Shown piece after piece: positions 6,356 to 13,420 of a stretch of 63,203 nucleotides of DNA. Both the position numbers and the translations under genes were made by a program. The stretch is from Candidatus Poribacteria bacterium (GTDB lineage: Bacteria > Poribacteria > WGA-4E > WGA-3G): contig PYJA01000089.1 of the NCBI GenBank assembly GCA_003635185.1, forward strand, positions 1 through 63,203, in the 5' to 3' direction. The notes below the pieces were generated by a model. That model had not been told where the DNA came from and searched no databases. It worked only from the letters and a program-made list of their open reading frames with translations. How positions within the stretch are numbered: position 1 is the first letter of the stretch; the number at the start of each line of letters is the position of its first letter.

Positions 6356-7303
6356 TTATAAACTGACAAGCCAATTAGATAATGAGGCAATTTGATCTGC
6401 GTTTGTTAAGTTAGCTGCGTTCTTAAGTGTTCCTTCCTCAAGATGTCTCCAAATTTCTTGTGCCATGCTGTCAACAATAACAGCCCCGATAAAAAAGAGA
6501 GTTGGTGATAAATTTTTAGATGCAAAAGCTGTTCTGATACGAGTTAGTGCAGTTTGTGCCGTTTTCCAATGTTCGTCGGCACCTGCTGGATCAATTCCTC
6601 CTTTTAGTTCGCCAAAAGCAATAAATTTTTCAGGAATTCTATAAGTCGCAGGCTTAATTTCGTCTGGAGCACAATGAAGTAGACACATATCAATGTTTTT
6701 CTTCACTAATGGAATAGTTCGGTTATAAATTAGCGTTCGTATTTCACCATCCCTTTTCCAACTAAGTGCTTTGAGACTCAATTCTATATCCGCTTCACCA
6801 TTCTTTCCCTCAATCCATGTGTTACTAACAGCGTTAAGCCATTGATAAGCTGTTTCAGTCAGAGTCAGGGCAGAAATGATTGCTCGGGTTAGTTTTCTTT
6901 CTGCTAACTTGCCCGCAATGTTTCGCATCACACCACCTAACGAATCTCCACGTGTCAACAGAAATCGATAAACTAATTCCTCTACAAACTCTGTGCCAGC
7001 AGGTTCTAAAAAATTTTCTATTAATTGTTCTATTGCTCTTGTTTGGTTGACCTCATCTGTGTACCCAAGTGCCTTATCTGAAAATCCTGCAGCTGTTAGT
7101 AACGCGGGTCGAATCTCATCAATTTTGAGTAAATCAATAGGGGTTTTTGCCTGTGATGCAAAAACTTTGAATGCCCGTGCTTGCTCGACAAAAGGCGTTG
7201 CCTGCCGATTCCTTTCCAATGCAAGAGCGACAAAACCAGAGCGAATTTCTTCAGGGGGAGTTATGAGATCGCTGCTATTAGATAAATGTTGAATATTCGA
7301 CAT
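6356..7303 (-). CDS. AvaI/BsoBI-family type II restriction endonuclease
   Basis: The cytoplasmic product should cut unmethylated DNA, by family CYCGRG. From the preferred ATG at 7303 it is 315 residues, close to known members (about 315-323). The signature is FGELKGGIDPAGADEHWKTA, holding the E-x-K of the catalytic core and the downstream histidine. A longer frame starts at 7417, but it would overlap the methyltransferase gene by 140 bases. The 7303 start overlaps it by 26 bases and begins MSNIQHLS. The ribosome site is weak, so coupling to the upstream gene is likely. Expression after the methyltransferase fits a protective order. The exact target sequence is inferred from the family. Confidence 0.85.
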   Translation of the reverse strand: MSNIQHLSNSSDLITPPEEIRSGFVALALERNRQATPFVEQARAFKVFASQAKTPIDLLKIDEIRPALLTAAGFSDKALGYTDEVNQTRAIEQLIENFLEPAGTEFVEELVYRFLLTRGDSLGGVMRNIAGKLAERKLTRAIISALTLTETAYQWLNAVSNTWIEGKNGEADIELSLKALSWKRDGEIRTLIYNRTIPLVKKNIDMCLLHCAPDEIKPATYRIPEKFIAFGELKGGIDPAGADEHWKTAQTALTRIRTAFASKNLSPTLFFIGAVIVDSMAQEIWRHLEEGTLKNAANLTNADQIASLSNWLVSL

Positions 7304-8732
7304 TATCTTTTTTCCAAACATACACGCATTTACGAAGTGGTATGCGGCCATACATACCCATTTGCTGACTGCTATTTCCCTTTTTTCCTGGCACAACGAG
7401 GATTTTTTCAACTTCAAATCCCAACGTTCTTGCTATATCAGACAAAATCAAGTCTACGGAAATACCAACGCCCGCGTAGCGAACATTGTCATTCACCATG
7501 AAAAGGCGTGCATTCGGTTTTAACACACGGAAACACTCTCCAATGACACACGCCATTTCAGAAAAATAGCCGCGCACCATTCTCGGAATGCTGTTGTTGT
7601 TTAATGTGCCAGCTGCCTTTTCATGTTCAAGATAGGTATTAATTGTTTTGAGCAATTTCTGATTATTGGCTGCTTCTATAAACGGAGACCATTTCGGGCA
7701 GATTTTTAACAAATCTTTCTCTCTATTTTCTACGGTGCAACTGAGCATTTCCTGTCGTAAATTAGAAACTTCTGCATGTGTGAGACCTAACATCGCCAAC
7801 TCAAGAGCGTAAGTACGGGTGTAATCATATCGATTACAATAAGGTGGCGAAGTCATGATCGCAGTATAAGATTCTGTTTCTAAAGTAGGTAAAATTCCAA
7901 GACAAGAACCTTTGAATAAGTTAATACCACATGATGTTTGTGTAACAGGAAAGAGTGTTATTAGTGTCTCGGCAGAAGTTACATCTGATAATATCTCTTT
8001 TAGTTTGGCGGTTATTGCAGGCGCGAATGAAAGAATTTCACCCTTATTGAACGGCTTTGTGCCTGGTCGTATTTTGCCTGAGCGCGCATCCCAACGTAGA
8101 TATTGCCCATCTTTTCGCGTATAACTGATTGATTCTAAAACGCACAACAATGAGAGACGAAGAATGGCTTGAATTATCTCATTTTCATGTTGCATCGCGC
8201 CCCTATAACGTTCGATTGCATCTACCGTTTCAGAGGGATAAGCGTTTTCCGTAATCCGAAATGTACTAAACGGCACTCTCTGCGGAAAATCCTTCCACGG
8301 TTGTGAGGCGATCCATCGTTCAAGTGTAGCAGTTTCACTTGTGGTCAAACCACTTTGCAATAAAAGTCGTGTTTGGATAATTTCTTGTCCAATAGGTAGT
8401 AATTCTATTCCATCAGCGTGGATATTTTGTTCACTTGCAGCAAACAAGGCCGTGCCTATTCCTGCAAACGGATCAAGCACTTTCCCCTGTGTGCCACCTT
8501 CATAATTACTCAAAAAGTATTCAACAAGTCCCGCTGAAAATGCTTCTTTGTATTTATACCAATTATAGGCAGGTTTGTCTTTGTTTCCCTGAAAGCTCAC
8601 GATCTTCCGAGACAAAAAAGGGGCTATTGAGAATTGCGATTTGAATTCTTCGGTGAGTTCAGCGTCAAGTGCGGTGATTTCGTCACGCAGCTCTGCCGCT
8701 TGCGATTCAAATTCGTTTTCTCGAAAAGTCAT
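7278..8732 (-). CDS. Modification DNA methyltransferase (SPPY type) of the AvaI/BsoBI-like system
   Basis: SAM-dependent methyltransferase expected to protect the site cut by its neighbour. Motif I is VLDPFAGIGTALFAA (about residues 86-100). Motif IV is TSPPYCNRYDYTRTYALELA near 300; SPPY usually goes with N4-cytosine methylation. About 200 residues separate the motifs, which may hold target-recognition parts. I prefer the ATG at 8732, which has AAGGG five bases upstream; a GTG at 8738 would add two residues. The gene overlaps the endonuclease start. The modified base is not provable from sequence. Confidence 0.9.
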   Translation of the reverse strand: MTFRENEFESQAAELRDEITALDAELTEEFKSQFSIAPFLSRKIVSFQGNKDKPAYNWYKYKEAFSAGLVEYFLSNYEGGTQGKVLDPFAGIGTALFAASEQNIHADGIELLPIGQEIIQTRLLLQSGLTTSETATLERWIASQPWKDFPQRVPFSTFRITENAYPSETVDAIERYRGAMQHENEIIQAILRLSLLCVLESISYTRKDGQYLRWDARSGKIRPGTKPFNKGEILSFAPAITAKLKEILSDVTSAETLITLFPVTQTSCGINLFKGSCLGILPTLETESYTAIMTSPPYCNRYDYTRTYALELAMLGLTHAEVSNLRQEMLSCTVENREKDLLKICPKWSPFIEAANNQKLLKTINTYLEHEKAAGTLNNNSIPRMVRGYFSEMACVIGECFRVLKPNARLFMVNDNVRYAGVGISVDLILSDIARTLGFEVEKILVVPGKKGNSSQQMGMYGRIPLRKCVYVWKKDNVEYSTFI

Positions 8733-8740
8733 AAGCACCC

Positions 8741-9505
8741 TTATTGATCACGATTCAGTATCTCATCCCAATTATGTTCGGGTGAGTAACCCAATTCTTT
8801 TTCTGCTTGCTTCCAATCAAAACGCGAGTCTGATCGTCCTGCGACTGCGTTATACGCGCCGTAAGTAATCTTTTCTGTTTCAATTGCACGTTCCACACAC
8901 TGTGCGACATCCCTCGGATCAACATAAACAAACCAGGGATCTGTTACAACATCAGGTGCTGAAGGACCGGGATTAAGCCCATCCCCTGCAATAACGCCCG
9001 GGCGGATATGAATAACTTTCAAACCGTGTGCTTGATGGTAGGCTAAACCTATCTGTTCACCGAGATGCTTTGCCAGGGCATAATAAAGATCGCCTGCGCC
9101 GAACTGAAATGGATCATCTACCTGATACGGTAATTTGGAACCAGAGGCAGGTGGGCATGCCGAAATACTGGAAATGTTAACCAATTTTTGCACGCCTTGC
9201 TTCACACAAGCTTCGGCAACATTCCATGTGCCTTTTACCATCACATCAGCGAATAAGGAGATCGGTTTACCGTGCCGTTCCCGCACCAATGCAACGAGGT
9301 GAACGACAGCATCCTGTTCGGCACATGCTGCTTCAAACTCATAAGCATTTGTAACATCTGCTTTGATAAATGTTGTCCCATCAAAATCGATATTCGGTTC
9401 AACAATATCAGTCAGCGTCAGTTGATATTTACTGTGTAACCGCTCAATGATAAATTGCGCGAGGTAGCCAGCGGCACCCGTAATCAGGACCTTTTCAATT
9501 GCCAT
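8741..9505 (-). CDS. NAD-dependent epimerase/dehydratase (extended SDR)
   Basis: The 254-residue cytoplasmic protein has a Rossmann start (VLITGAAGYLAQFI, residues 6-19) and the SDR catalytic pair YYALAK around 136-141 with a nearby serine-rich strand (NISSISACPP). It is likely to act on a sugar or sugar nucleotide; the substrate cannot be read. It lies 8 bases after the selenoprotein gene and ends 8 bases before the preferred methyltransferase ATG, so it belongs to one transcript running from 11605. A Gfo/Idh/MocA gene two places upstream suggests sugar metabolism. Confidence 0.9.
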   Translation of the reverse strand: MAIEKVLITGAAGYLAQFIIERLHSKYQLTLTDIVEPNIDFDGTTFIKADVTNAYEFEAACAEQDAVVHLVALVRERHGKPISLFADVMVKGTWNVAEACVKQGVQKLVNISSISACPPASGSKLPYQVDDPFQFGAGDLYYALAKHLGEQIGLAYHQAHGLKVIHIRPGVIAGDGLNPGPSAPDVVTDPWFVYVDPRDVAQCVERAIETEKITYGAYNAVAGRSDSRFDWKQAEKELGYSPEHNWDEILNRDQ

Positions 9506-9513
9506 GATTTCAA

Positions 9514-9858
9514 CTATCCATTTGCGAACGGTACGTCAGTATAGAGTGCATCGTTGTAGCCAACATAAAAGACATTCCCCGCTTTAACCGTCGGCGCACG
9601 CAAACTACCACTACGTCCTAAAACTACTTTGAGGATTGATTCGCGGTTATCTTCATCGGGAACGAAAGTTTCTACGCTTTTACCTTTTGCAGCCACAATT
9701 TGCTCAGCAGAACTCATTAAGTCCCATACAGCATCTGCCTCTAACTTCTCTTTTCGAGCATCTGTTTTGTTTTCTGCTTGTAAGTTGTTTGTGTCAAGAA
9801 CCTCTTGCACTTTTTTGCATGAGTTTCAACTATTCCGAAAATAGATCCAATCTATCAT
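9514..9858 (-). CDS. ArsC-family selenoprotein (in-frame UGA read as selenocysteine)
   Basis: From the ATG at 9858 the frame reads M-I-D-W-I-Y-F-R-N-S, then TGA (9828-9826), then N-S-C-K-K-V-Q-E-V-L-D and on to TAG. The product is 114 residues with U11-x-x-C14 where thioredoxin-fold ArsC-like proteins have C-x-x-C. The C-terminal part (LGRSGSLRAPTVKAG, then FYVGYN) fits the ArsC/Spx-like fold and its R-x-P motif. The ATG has a strong GGAGGAATTGAA leader and overlaps the upstream stop (ATGA). A SECIS-like hairpin follows the TGA. A simple ORF call would start at the GTG at 9810, inside that hairpin, and lose the active site. Likely a thiol/selenol oxidoreductase; arsenate reduction is not shown. 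Confidence 0.9.
9791..9828 (-). promoter_or_regulatory. UGA codon and bacterial SECIS-like hairpin
   Basis: Fifteen bases after the TGA comes GTGCAAGAGGTTCTTGACAC (9810-9791). It folds into an 8-bp stem (GTG/CAC and CAAGA/TCTTG, one bulged A) with apical loop GGT. The loop lies 24-26 bases past the UGA, within the usual range for bacterial SECIS elements bound by SelB. A small G-containing loop is typical. The folding was done by eye. Confidence 0.65.
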
Positions 9859-10895
9859 TTCAATTCCTCCACAGGAATAAATTTACCCGTATTGCGACTT
9901 TTAATTGCCGCTTCAATTAATGTGAGTGTTTGAAGCGCGTCAGCAAAAGTCGAACGAATTAAAGTTCTATCTTCTGTTTCAATTGCCCGTAACCACGCTC
10001 CCGTTTTGTCTAAACCTAAACTGTTTTGTGAAGCAGCAGGTTCATTTATTGTTTCACCATTGAGATAACCACGAATAGCATTGTCTGTCATATTCGCTTG
10101 CAAGCGTAAATGTGGCCCTACGACTTCAACATCAAAACAGAATCCTTCGGTCCCACAGTGATTCATGTGTGTTCCGAAAACACCGTTGTCCAATTCGTAA
10201 GTCATCTGTATAGCATTTTCTGCGTCGAATTCGGTTCGTTCTAACGCCATATTTTTGATTGTTAATGCATGTGCTTGTAAGGGTTTCGGGTTTCCCATAA
10301 CGTATCGTGCGCAATCCAGCACGTGCACTGCTTGCTCTGCTAAGGGACCGCCACTAATCTCAGACTGTAGAAACCAGGTAGGCATTTGAAAATCGAGATA
10401 ATAATTGATTGTGCAAACTGTTCGCACCAGATGGACTGTCTCTGAAGCAATTAATGCTTTCAGTTGTTCATAAAGCGGGTGATACCGAAGTTGAAAGCCA
10501 ACAGCTGCCATTACATCCGCCTTTTCAACACATTCAAGACATTTCTCTCCATCACTTATATTCAGGGCAGGCGGTTTTTCTATCATTAGAGCGATGCCAT
10601 GTTCACACGCCATCTGGATAGGTTCAAAACGAATAGGGGGTGGCGTTGTAATCACCACCCCGTCCATTTCTACATCAAAAAAATCACTTAGTCTATCGGT
10701 GGCAAGTTCAGCTTCAGCAGACGTTGCGAGTTCTTGTGCTGATTCAAGCTGCACATCGTGGACAGCAGCCACACGCGCCCCGTAGCCGGTTATTGCGTTG
10801 TGGTGATGCCTACCCATCCTGCCAGCGCCGATAATACCAATAGATAAAGGATTAACACCGCGATCACCTGTGCTCGCGGTGGATTTTTGTTGCAT
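9855..10895 (-). CDS. Gfo/Idh/MocA-family oxidoreductase
   Basis: NAD(P)-dependent dehydrogenase of the glucose-fructose oxidoreductase/inositol dehydrogenase family, 346 residues. The Rossmann motif IGIIGAGRMGRHHHNAI is near residues 18-34, and EKPPALN (near 105) is the usual E-K-P active-site motif. The substrate, probably a sugar or inositol, cannot be read. Its ATG overlaps the stop of the upstream LamG-type gene (TAATG) and its own stop overlaps the selenoprotein start (ATGA). There is no strong ribosome site of its own, so translation is probably coupled. Confidence 0.93.
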   Translation of the reverse strand: MQQKSTASTGDRGVNPLSIGIIGAGRMGRHHHNAITGYGARVAAVHDVQLESAQELATSAEAELATDRLSDFFDVEMDGVVITTPPPIRFEPIQMACEHGIALMIEKPPALNISDGEKCLECVEKADVMAAVGFQLRYHPLYEQLKALIASETVHLVRTVCTINYYLDFQMPTWFLQSEISGGPLAEQAVHVLDCARYVMGNPKPLQAHALTIKNMALERTEFDAENAIQMTYELDNGVFGTHMNHCGTEGFCFDVEVVGPHLRLQANMTDNAIRGYLNGETINEPAASQNSLGLDKTGAWLRAIETEDRTLIRSTFADALQTLTLIEAAIKSRNTGKFIPVEELK

Positions 10896-11605
10896 TACTT
10901 AAGTTTTAAGTTACCCCATGTCACGGCAATTTTACCTTGCGGTTCAACTGGTGTTGCGGTGCCGCCAGGTGTTACGACGAATATGTTGTCGTACTGGGCG
11001 TGTTCAGCACCACTCATGCGGAACCCAATTTTTCCAGATGAGAAAGCAGCTTGTGAATCAGTCCATTCACTCACAAAAGATAAATCGTCAACATCGCCAC
11101 CTACGGGTCCAATGTACGCTTTAAAATTGGAACCTTTCCGCACCTCAAATTTTGCACGGTACCAGACATTTGCTTTCCGATCAACACCATCTTCAAATGC
11201 GCCTGGTTCCGCAGCCCATCCACCATTGACTCTTCTATGCCAACGGATGTGTTGGGGAGTATGACCAGATGCATCGGTGGAGACTTGGTGCATATAAATG
11301 TTGTTACCGTCCGTTCCATGGAACACAAACCCTGTTAAGCCGTTCTGCATCGCTTTAAAATCAGCATAATAATCGTATTCTTCGGGAAACTCATCAACGC
11401 TAAGACCGACTTCGCCGCCTGGCACGAAAAGCACACTATTACCGAGTACATCATGCCCATCAGCATTGTCTTCAATTGTCCAAGTACCTTGCGGTGCCCA
11501 TTTTGATTCGTCAATGTTCCCACCCTCAAAATCATCATGAAATAGAAGTTCAGCAGAGACGGTGCCAACGCACAAAATCATTGCTAAACAGATTAAATAT
11601 CGCAT
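10895..11605 (-). CDS. Secreted concanavalin-A-like (LamG/DUF1080-type) protein 1
   Basis: Signal peptide to about residue 18 (cut after VSA), then a jelly-roll of about 190 residues starting LLFHDDFEGGNIDESKW. Such folds usually bind or cleave glycans; no catalytic residues can be assigned. It is a tandem paralogue of the gene at 11814-12524, same length and colinear. The C-terminus ends VEPQGKIAVTWGNLKLK, a tail shared with the next two genes. AAGGAGATG precedes the ATG. It leads the transcript running through the oxidoreductase, selenoprotein and restriction genes. Confidence 0.85.
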   Translation of the reverse strand: MRYLICLAMILCVGTVSAELLFHDDFEGGNIDESKWAPQGTWTIEDNADGHDVLGNSVLFVPGGEVGLSVDEFPEEYDYYADFKAMQNGLTGFVFHGTDGNNIYMHQVSTDASGHTPQHIRWHRRVNGGWAAEPGAFEDGVDRKANVWYRAKFEVRKGSNFKAYIGPVGGDVDDLSFVSEWTDSQAAFSSGKIGFRMSGAEHAQYDNIFVVTPGGTATPVEPQGKIAVTWGNLKLK

Positions 11606-11720
11606 TTTATATCATCTCCTTGTGATAAAGCGTAAAACTGGACGACTCTGCCGCCAATTCAACCTTTATCAATTTAGATTATTTTAATGTAGCAGTTAAT
11701 TCTACTACAATTTGTTTGTA

Positions 11721-11750
11721 ATTATACCATTAATTCCTTTTAACGAGTAA
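11721..11750 (-). promoter_or_regulatory. Possible extended -10 promoter for the 11605 gene
   Basis: On the minus strand TG-G-TATAAT (11729-11721) is an extended -10. TTACTC (11750-11745) is a weak -35 at 18 bp. It lies about 115 bases upstream of the ATG. Confidence 0.35.
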
Positions 11751-11813
11751 TCAAAAGTAAGATGTCCTACTTTCAAATAAAGAATAAGTGCAAGATTCTC
11801 ACCTTTTGACGGC

Positions 11814-12524
11814 CTATTTCTTTTTAAGATTCCCCCATGTCACCGCGAGTTTGTCTCTCGGTTCAACGGGAAAGATATTAAATTCAGGCGTAGCCACGAC
11901 AATGTTATCATATTGTGCGCGCTCACCACCACTCATCCGTATCCCAATTTTTCCCTTCTCAAAAGCCTTTTGACCATCCGTCCATTCACTCACAAGCGTA
12001 AGGTCTTTATCTTCTACGCCGACATCACCGAGATATACCTTAAATTTGTAGTCTTTACGGACCTCAAATTTTACACGGTACCATACATTTTGGTCACGAT
12101 TCACTTCATCTGCAAACGGTTCGGCATCAACAGCATAATTACCATTTACTTTTCTGTGCCAGCGGATGTGTTGCGGTGTATGCCCGGAACCAGCTGTTGA
12201 AACTTGATGCATATATACGTTATTGCTGTCTTGACAGTGAAAACAAAAGCCTGTCAAACCAGCGGATACGGTTTTAAAATCAGCGTAATAATCGAACTCT
12301 TCGGGAAACTCATCAACGCTGAGACCAATCTCACTATTCTGGACGGCAAGCACTTTTTTGCCGAGAACATCGTGGTCATCAGCATTATCCTCAATTACCC
12401 AAGTGCCCTGTGAAGCCCATTTTGCCTTGTCAACTTCACCCCCCTCAAAGTTATCTTCAAACAGAATTTCAGCTGAAACGGTGCTAACACATAAAATCAG
12501 TGTCAAATAGATTACATATCGCAT
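11814..12524 (-). CDS. Secreted concanavalin-A-like (LamG/DUF1080-type) protein 2
   Basis: Paralogue of the 10895-11605 product, also 236 residues. Signal peptide to about residue 18 (VSA), then ILFEDNFEGGEVDKAKW and the same jelly-roll with matching HTPQHIRWHR. The C-terminus is VEPRDKLAVTWGNLKKK. AAGGAGAT lies 6 bases before the ATG. Only 18 bases separate it from the upstream discoidin-domain gene, so the two are probably cotranscribed. No enzyme function can be read. Confidence 0.85.
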   Translation of the reverse strand: MRYVIYLTLILCVSTVSAEILFEDNFEGGEVDKAKWASQGTWVIEDNADDHDVLGKKVLAVQNSEIGLSVDEFPEEFDYYADFKTVSAGLTGFCFHCQDSNNVYMHQVSTAGSGHTPQHIRWHRKVNGNYAVDAEPFADEVNRDQNVWYRVKFEVRKDYKFKVYLGDVGVEDKDLTLVSEWTDGQKAFEKGKIGIRMSGGERAQYDNIVVATPEFNIFPVEPRDKLAVTWGNLKKK

Positions 12525-12542
12525 TTTAATCTCCTTATATTG

Positions 12543-13262
12543 TTAGAATTTATCAGTTTTAACCTGTGCCCAAATTGTCGTTAGTTTAGCAGTTGGTTCA
12601 ACCGCCATCGGATCATTACCACCATAAATCTCAATTTCATCAATTCGTGCATCATTATTCAAGCGAATGTGAATGCGCACCCATCGTGCCTCTACATCGT
12701 CAAAGGTTATCTCAGTGGTTTTGCTGATCGCTGCACCTTTGTGAGTATAAACCTTTGTCCATGTGTTCGCTTCGGAGTTTGCATCTGCCTTAGTTGTTGC
12801 AACAAGTATATCAAAGTCTGCCGTCATCCTGTCAAGAAAATTTTGTGCATGGTCACTACCGAAATAGATGCGGTTTACATTCGCAACAGCACCGATGTCA
12901 ATCTGTGCCCAACCGGGTACTGCGTTGATAATCCAACTACGGCAATTGTTATAGAATCCATCGTTAAGGTATTCTGTACAATGCCGTTGCGGACACCAAC
13001 CCCCTAACAGTGAAGAAGCGTTAGGTTTAGCGTCTTTCAGTAGTGCTAAATTCGGTTGATTATCCCGAACTGTTGGCACAAATTCGGGGCCCGCTATACC
13101 AGCAGGGGCATCACAAGCATCCGTTGCCGCTTTGATGTCCTGCTCCTTGAATTCATAGCTTCCAAATTTTTCCGGTCCCTTGTCTTCATCATGGAGCGCT
13201 ATAGCACCGGGTGCAATTAACATTATTACTATCACAAGCAAAGAAAAAGTTGTAAATCTCAT
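12543..13262 (-). CDS. Secreted F5/8-type C (discoidin) domain protein
   Basis: The start is set at the ATG at 13262, which has AAGGAGGG nearby; a frame from 13313 would put 17 charged residues before the signal peptide. The product is 239 residues: signal peptide to about 23, a charged linker, then a discoidin-like beta-sandwich from NLALLKDAKPNASS to WVRIHIRLNNDARIDEIEIYGG. Such domains usually bind carbohydrate or membranes. The C-terminus (AVEPTAKLTTIWAQVK) carries the tail found on the two LamG-type neighbours, although the fold is different. Confidence 0.85.
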   Translation of the reverse strand: MRFTTFSLLVIVIMLIAPGAIALHDEDKGPEKFGSYEFKEQDIKAATDACDAPAGIAGPEFVPTVRDNQPNLALLKDAKPNASSLLGGWCPQRHCTEYLNDGFYNNCRSWIINAVPGWAQIDIGAVANVNRIYFGSDHAQNFLDRMTADFDILVATTKADANSEANTWTKVYTHKGAAISKTTEITFDDVEARWVRIHIRLNNDARIDEIEIYGGNDPMAVEPTAKLTTIWAQVKTDKF

Positions 13263-13420
13263 CGGAAATCCCTCCTTATAGAACCAGAAAATGTGAATTA
13301 GAATGCGCGACAAAGGGTTTAGGTAAAAACATGAGAAAATATGGATAGCTAATTATCCATATAGTGTTTAATAGGATAGCATATTTCGCGCAAAAATACT
13401 ACAATATTTCACACATGCGA
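13263..13420. other. Upstream region of the discoidin gene with a 9-bp inverted repeat
   Basis: ATATGGATA (13339-13347) and TATCCATAT (13354-13362) form a perfect inverted repeat with a 6-base loop. It lies about 80 bases upstream of the 13262 start and could be an operator. I see no clear promoter. Confidence 0.35.

Follow-up and report, generated by a model that had tools for sequence, protein, structure and literature searches.

A small ArsC/Spx-type gene of a Poribacteria bacterium with an in-frame TGA codon almost certainly read as selenocysteine

On the minus strand of a contig from Candidatus Poribacteria bacterium, a short frame that opens with ATG directly at the end of an oxidoreductase gene meets TGA at its eleventh codon. 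The question raised by this locus is whether the TGA ends translation or is read as selenocysteine (Sec). An earlier note, made from the letters of the window (the whole analyzed stretch of 63,203 nucleotides), had proposed the second reading and described the frame as an ArsC-like selenoprotein gene with a hairpin behind the TGA. Here we compare the frame, the hairpin and the Sec-decoding genes with those of related genomes, and assign the predicted protein to a family. The features of the locus are collected in Table 1.

Table 1. Features of the predicted selenoprotein locus (window positions)
Feature	Position	Strand	Remarks
Predicted selenoprotein gene	9514..9858	-	114 codons plus stop, predicted Sec at codon 11; read-through translation, NF041106.1 match
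TGA codon, almost certainly read as selenocysteine (U11)	9826..9828	-	TGA in 60/60 distinct loci; Cys (TGT) in L172, L182 and L189
Cys14 codon TGC, second residue of U-x-x-C	9817..9819	-	Cys in 60/60 distinct loci
GGAGG, likely ribosome-binding site	9866..9870	-	from the sequence
Bacterial SECIS-type hairpin	9791..9810	-	8 bp, loop GGT 9802-9800, bulged A 9794
Gfo/Idh/MocA-family oxidoreductase gene	9855..10895	-	Pfam PF01408, 69 bits; upstream
NAD-dependent epimerase/dehydratase-family (SDR) gene	8741..9505	-	Pfam PF01370, 83 bits; downstream

The reading frame and the column of the TGA codon

Read through the TGA, the frame runs from ATG (9858-9856) to TAG (9516-9514) and encodes a protein of 114 residues with the N-terminus MIDWIYFRNS-U-NSCKK, in which U11-N-S-C14 forms a U-x-x-C motif. 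The purine block GGAGG or a similar one also precedes many orthologues. With TGA taken as a stop, the plain open reading frame call starts at GTG 9810 and comprises 98 amino acids, and because of this start the U-x-x-C redox motif is lost from the call. The start codon, the GGAGG, the TGA at codon 11 and the motif described in the earlier note were all found in place, as was the truncation with loss of the redox site that it had foreseen. When the whole window was scanned for frames that read through a TGA, have a Cys near it and continue for at least 60 codons beyond it, the selenoprotein frame was the only one listed. A scan for promoters and terminators gave fewer sites than were obtained in shuffled sequences.

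The gene was found in 47 of 59 genomes (the source genome included), and each of the 47 matches contains one in-frame TGA, one match also spanning a TAA. Across the source phylum, it was found in 70 of 84 genomes, again with one in-frame TGA in 70/70 matches; 69 of these matches score over the cut-off, and the remaining one (G047) is partial. In a second phylum, the gene scores over the cut-off in 28 of 395 genomes (28/28 with one TGA), with 8 more below it. One class of that phylum has matches in 166 of 257 genomes; among the 150 matches listed of 168, one TGA is present in 145 and none in 5. The codon itself was TGA in all of 79 loci read (60 distinct), and the 30 loci read from the second-phylum class comprise 27 with TGA and three with TGT, which places Cys at this column. 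Sec and Cys therefore alternate at position 11. No Cys form was seen at this column in the 84 genomes of the source phylum, hence the alternation comes from another group. The notion that the family always uses Sec was dropped, as five members were listed without a stop and three of these were read as Cys.

Upstream of the TGA, Trp4 and Arg8 are each present in 60/60 distinct loci, and Arg8 is encoded by six different codons; because of this invariance across codons, the stretch 5' of the TGA is taken as coding. Downstream, Cys14 is nearly invariant in alignment A2. In one locus (L161 of G136), the motif is U-x-x-S, the second Cys being replaced by Ser (TCC). The earlier note had recommended aligning the homologues to look for Cys or Sec at position 11, and had named as adverse the case in which all of them start downstream of the TGA and lack such a column. 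The homologues begin upstream of the TGA and carry Sec or Cys at position 11.

These observations bear on a reading in which the TGA is a true stop, so that a leader or coupling peptide of 10 codons would follow the Gfo/Idh/MocA-family gene and the functional protein of 98 amino acids would be made from GTG 9810. The stop codon of the Gfo/Idh gene (TGA, 9857-9855) overlaps the start of the frame within ATGA (9858-9855), an arrangement that could couple translation, and a product of this length is what the plain call provides. However, (i) in both groups, conservation at the protein level extends to the residues upstream of the TGA and to the TGA position itself, (ii) the three TGT-bearing loci have Cys at this column, (iii) the U-x-x-C motif would be lost with a start at 9810, and (iv) the GTG codon at 9810 is kept in just 36 of the 60 distinct loci. 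We regard a true stop as highly improbable, and read the TGA as a Sec codon in what follows.

The hairpin behind the TGA codon

The predicted SECIS-type hairpin, GTGCAAGA-GGT-TCTTG-A-CAC, occupies bases 16-35 after the TGA, with a spacing of 23 nt between TGA and loop, and its stem has 5 uninterrupted base pairs above the bulge and 8 in all. The pairs and the GGT loop agree with the 8-bp hairpin of the earlier note, which had placed it 15-34 bases after the TGA and had left the bulged A unmentioned. Within the family NF041106 (see below), this bulged A in the stem is the difference of the hairpin of the poribacterial branch. A bacterial SECIS model with a minimum free energy threshold of -7.5 kcal/mol is given in Fig. 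2 of a 2026 review (PMC13188914). The comparison with SECIS models suggested in the earlier note had a mixed outcome: the loop, its G, the stem and the spacing fit the model of that figure, and the energy of the hairpin with its flanks alone, -7.0 kcal/mol, is short of the threshold. An Rfam scan of positions 9600-10000 gave no match up to E = 5.

To judge the hairpin against the background of the window, a loose SECIS rule that disallows bulges was applied behind every TGA triplet on both strands. It found a hairpin behind 722 of 2357 triplets, with 19% scoring equal to or above the best unbulged hairpin of the selenoprotein gene. Since such hairpins are this common under the loose rule, a single one is weak evidence.

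Conservation of the hairpin was assessed in 47 distinct sequences against 500 shuffles. Pairing was found in 93.6% of cells, compared with 88.9% in the shuffles and 22-54% with the partner strand slid. Two-sided changes affect 16 cells, compared with 4.8 under shuffling, and the covariation score of 0.148 (0.067 under shuffling) was equalled by none of the 500 shuffles. Pairs with a two-sided change number 3 versus 1.8, a value that 60 of 500 shuffles reach. Compensatory changes are seen, for example, in the second pair, where 10 sequences have C-G in place of U-A, and in the pair adjoining the loop, where 3 have C-G in place of A-U. RNAalifold recovered 4 of the 8 pairs, with no covariation among those four. 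Codons within the stem are frozen: Leu at +10 is CTT in 60/60 loci, with six codons possible, Glu at +8 is GAG in 57/57 and Asp at +11 is GAC in 57/57, whereas Ser at +2 uses four codons. The conservation of the TGA together with a covarying hairpin is far beyond chance.

The lowest-energy fold of the 45 nt differs from the hairpin and reaches -9.4 kcal/mol. As a candidate functional element, this alternative fold was rejected because it has no compensatory change: 89.4% of its cells are paired, and zero pairs are changed on both sides.

That UGA is read here as another residue, through a changed code or unspecific read-through, would account for the open frame and nothing more. Against it, UGA serves as the stop codon of the ordinary Gfo/Idh gene next door, Cys occupies the column in all three members read that lack TGA, and the downstream hairpin is conserved. 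We consider this explanation improbable in the extreme. For the preferred reading, selenocysteine, knowledge of the family suggests that SelB carrying Sec-tRNA(Sec) would bind the hairpin (9810-9791) with its G-first loop 23 nt downstream of the UGA, and that selenocysteine would be inserted as residue 11.

Genes for selenocysteine decoding

The search for selA, selB, selC and selD that the earlier note had called for was answered in part. In the source assembly (G000; 4.57 Mb, 81.7% complete), selD is present (G000:C15:29458-30384, corresponding to L112:4459-5385) with 371.6 bits against a cut-off of 125. This selD has itself an in-frame TGA at the active site, C-A-G-U-A-S-K, and its frame is otherwise intact. 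No selA, selB or selC was found over the curated cut-offs in this 81.7% complete assembly; the best selB match (L001) was rejected as SelB of this genome, its sequence of 399 amino acids being recognized by eye as EF-Tu. The earlier note had held that a genome with no selABCD would speak against its reading. Taken literally, this is unfavourable as to selA, selB and selC, with selD present.

Over the cut-offs, the 59 genomes (the source included) contain selB in 53, selA in 50, selD in 52 and a tRNA-Sec match in 53, the last being counted at the gathering score, where a few matches near the threshold may be other long tRNAs. Among the 47 genomes that bear the selenoprotein gene, selB is over the cut-off in 45 and selA in 42; those lacking selB are G000 and G010 (82% and 73% complete), and selA is also lacking over the cut-off in three further gene-bearing genomes, G006, G021 and G048. 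The genome of locus L074, from another phylum, has SelB at 368 bits.

Absence of selA, selB and selC over the cut-offs would also be expected if the species had lost Sec decoding and the gene were a relict ending at codon 11. Several findings argue against a relict. By the selenoprotein, the nearest relative is G004, with 96% protein identity, and it has selA, selB, selC and selD over the cut-offs, ARAGORN detecting a tRNA-SeC in its locus L086. The hairpin of the source gene is intact, as is the selD frame save for its active-site TGA. In G004, selC and selB adjoin, and contig C106 of the source assembly (L132:1-1067) corresponds to the dapB side of this block with a 93% match and then breaks off, at the place of selC/selB in G004, within a transposase gene (PF01609) cut short by the end of the contig. 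On the far side of the G004 block, neither signal peptidase I nor lepA has a DNA match in the source assembly. Both of these genes are near-universal. Similarly, of the 19 kb surrounding the G004 selA, the source assembly matches only a few many-copy stretches. The likewise missing signal peptidase I, lepA and selA surroundings fit missing contigs and the completeness of 81.7%.

Because the relatives mostly have the genes, C106 ends in a transposase gene and the assembly is 81.7% complete, the absence of selA, selB and selC from the source assembly looks like an assembly gap. The argument that a genome without selABC refutes the Sec reading was rejected by the contig comparison with G004, and we hold loss of Sec decoding, with the gene as a relict, to be very improbable. 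The claim of the earlier note that UGA is decoded as Sec is supported by the Sec/Cys column, the covarying hairpin, the Sec machinery of the relatives and the selD of the source genome; on these comparisons, the in-frame TGA is almost certainly read as selenocysteine.

Protein family, genomic neighbourhood and probable role

The read-through protein matches the NCBIfam model NF041106.1 (ArsC_rel_Se_1, 'ArsC family (seleno)protein') with 125 bits against a curated cut-off of 85, over positions 1-107 of 107, and contains the U/C-x-x-C motif; 48/48 aligned members match this model at E <= 0.001. For Pfam ArsC (PF03960), it scores 17.9 bits, below the cut-off of 24, and for Spx/MgsR (TIGR01617), 23 bits, below the cut-off of 75.05. 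For each glutaredoxin model matched, among glutaredoxins such as YruB, NrdH and others, its score is likewise under the cut-off; similarity exists to the YruB model, which 33 of the 48 members match at E <= 0.001. A profile of the 48 members compared with solved structures retrieved Spx chains first (E about 1e-5) and YffB next. In the alignment to Spx (e.g., 1z3e), the Sec column falls on the first Cys of CTSC, so that U11-x-x-C14 parallels this motif, and the invariant L-R-A-P falls on LRRP; by score, the protein is not a member of Spx/MgsR.

The weak similarity to Pfam ArsC and the family name could suggest a true arsenate reductase with a catalytic Sec. Against this stand the score below the ArsC cut-off, the absence of TIGR00014 (arsC) from the matches of the read-through protein up to E = 1, the order of the nearest solved chains, Spx and then YffB, and the neighbourhood, since no arsenic genes were recognized among the neighbours examined. 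A true arsenate reductase is thus unlikely. By the curated tests, the predicted protein is no arsenate reductase and is nearer to Spx and glutaredoxins; the label 'ArsC-like' of the earlier note holds at the level of the fold and fails as a family assignment by PF03960 and by the structural comparison. Most likely, judging from the motif and the sequence relationship to Spx and glutaredoxins, the protein is a selenol-disulfide oxidoreductase.

Another small gene of ArsC/Spx type was observed in two loci, at L166:1468-1809 and L167:1486-1830; its in-frame TGA yields U-T-T-C and is followed by a hairpin. One of the two passes the Spx/MgsR cut-off (L166, 80 versus 75 bits) and the other is just below (L167, 72.7 bits); this gene apparently encodes a Sec-containing Spx/MgsR-like protein.

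Within the family of the source organism, 31 of 49 loci (two genomes being counted twice) have a Gfo/Idh/MocA homologue upstream of the gene, and 16 have an SDR homologue downstream of it. In other families, the arrangements include selA directly upstream on the same strand (L106 and L108 of G036 and G039) and an amidohydrolase gene upstream (L098 and four loci like it). In another phylum (L074 and L149), the gene lies beside that of a TIGR03169-like oxidoreductase, which scores below the cut-off and is related to the oxidoreductase domain that precedes SelD at its N-terminus, and a rhodanese-like gene follows downstream. The neighbourhood was discarded as a clue to function, as no gene order is kept across families (49 and 30 loci).

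Two further groups of genes were observed nearby. At 6356-8738 on the minus strand, adjacent genes encode a restriction endonuclease of the BsoBI type (PF09194, 471 bits) and a DNA methylase-like protein (PF01555, 31 bits), likely a restriction-modification pair; homologues of the endonuclease and the methylase occur near the selenoprotein gene in 10 and 17 of the 49 related loci, respectively. At 10895-13313 on the same strand, genes for secreted-looking proteins share a similar C-terminal tail, about 'KLAVTWGNLK'; those at 10895-11605 and 11814-12524 are alike, and homologues are found upstream of the selenoprotein gene in many relatives.

That Sec-containing ArsC-like proteins exist, as the earlier note stated, is borne out by published lists. 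Table 1 of the 2026 review (PMC13188914) includes NF041106 as 'Arsenate reductase-like protein', UxxC, with one Sec, under 'Predicted with high confidence', and ArsC-like selenoproteins also appear in earlier surveys (PMC1794560, PMC2398784 and PMC9312934). As far as the lists of the review go, its NF041106 selenoproteins (e.g., MDE3003982.1) belong to the same family, with U-x-x-C and one Sec, and no difference at the family level separates the present protein from them. The ArsC-like proteins of PMC1794560 and 'Arsenate reductase 2' (cd03032, UxxC) of an ocean metagenome in PMC2398784 resemble it, by their description, as ArsC/Spx-type bacterial Sec proteins. According to PMC5649159, most of the symbiont bins of a marine sponge, which represent several different phyla, contain SelA together with SelB, and most of the related references lack them. 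Within the paper collection covered by our literature search, no paper on selenoproteins of Poribacteria was found.

With a probability that we put at a little over 0.9, the product of the gene is a small selenoprotein of thioredoxin fold, belonging to the family NF041106, with SelB-dependent Sec at codon 11 and a selenol-thiol redox centre at U-x-x-C. In this best-supported account, Sec insertion is suggested by comparative evidence, and the oxidoreductase role by the motif and the relationship to Spx and glutaredoxins. The U-x-x-C motif and the invariant L-R-A-P, placed like LRRP of Spx, would form the redox centre, which may reduce or exchange a disulfide or a similar oxidized sulfur or selenium substrate. 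A bolder and rather doubtful proposal is that in Poribacteria and some other bacteria the protein serves as a near-core, selenium-dependent redox sensor, Spx-like, with a selenol replacing the sensing thiol, and possibly reports selenium or oxidant status to transcription or selenium metabolism.

The reading holds, and the case is of an ordinary kind: the protein is an additional Poribacteria member of an already listed selenoprotein family. Since the redox site goes missing when TGA is called as a stop, annotation pipelines that lack Sec logic would mis-annotate this gene and its relatives as well. As the gene is present in 70 of the 84 genomes of the phylum, it is a good marker of Sec use there.
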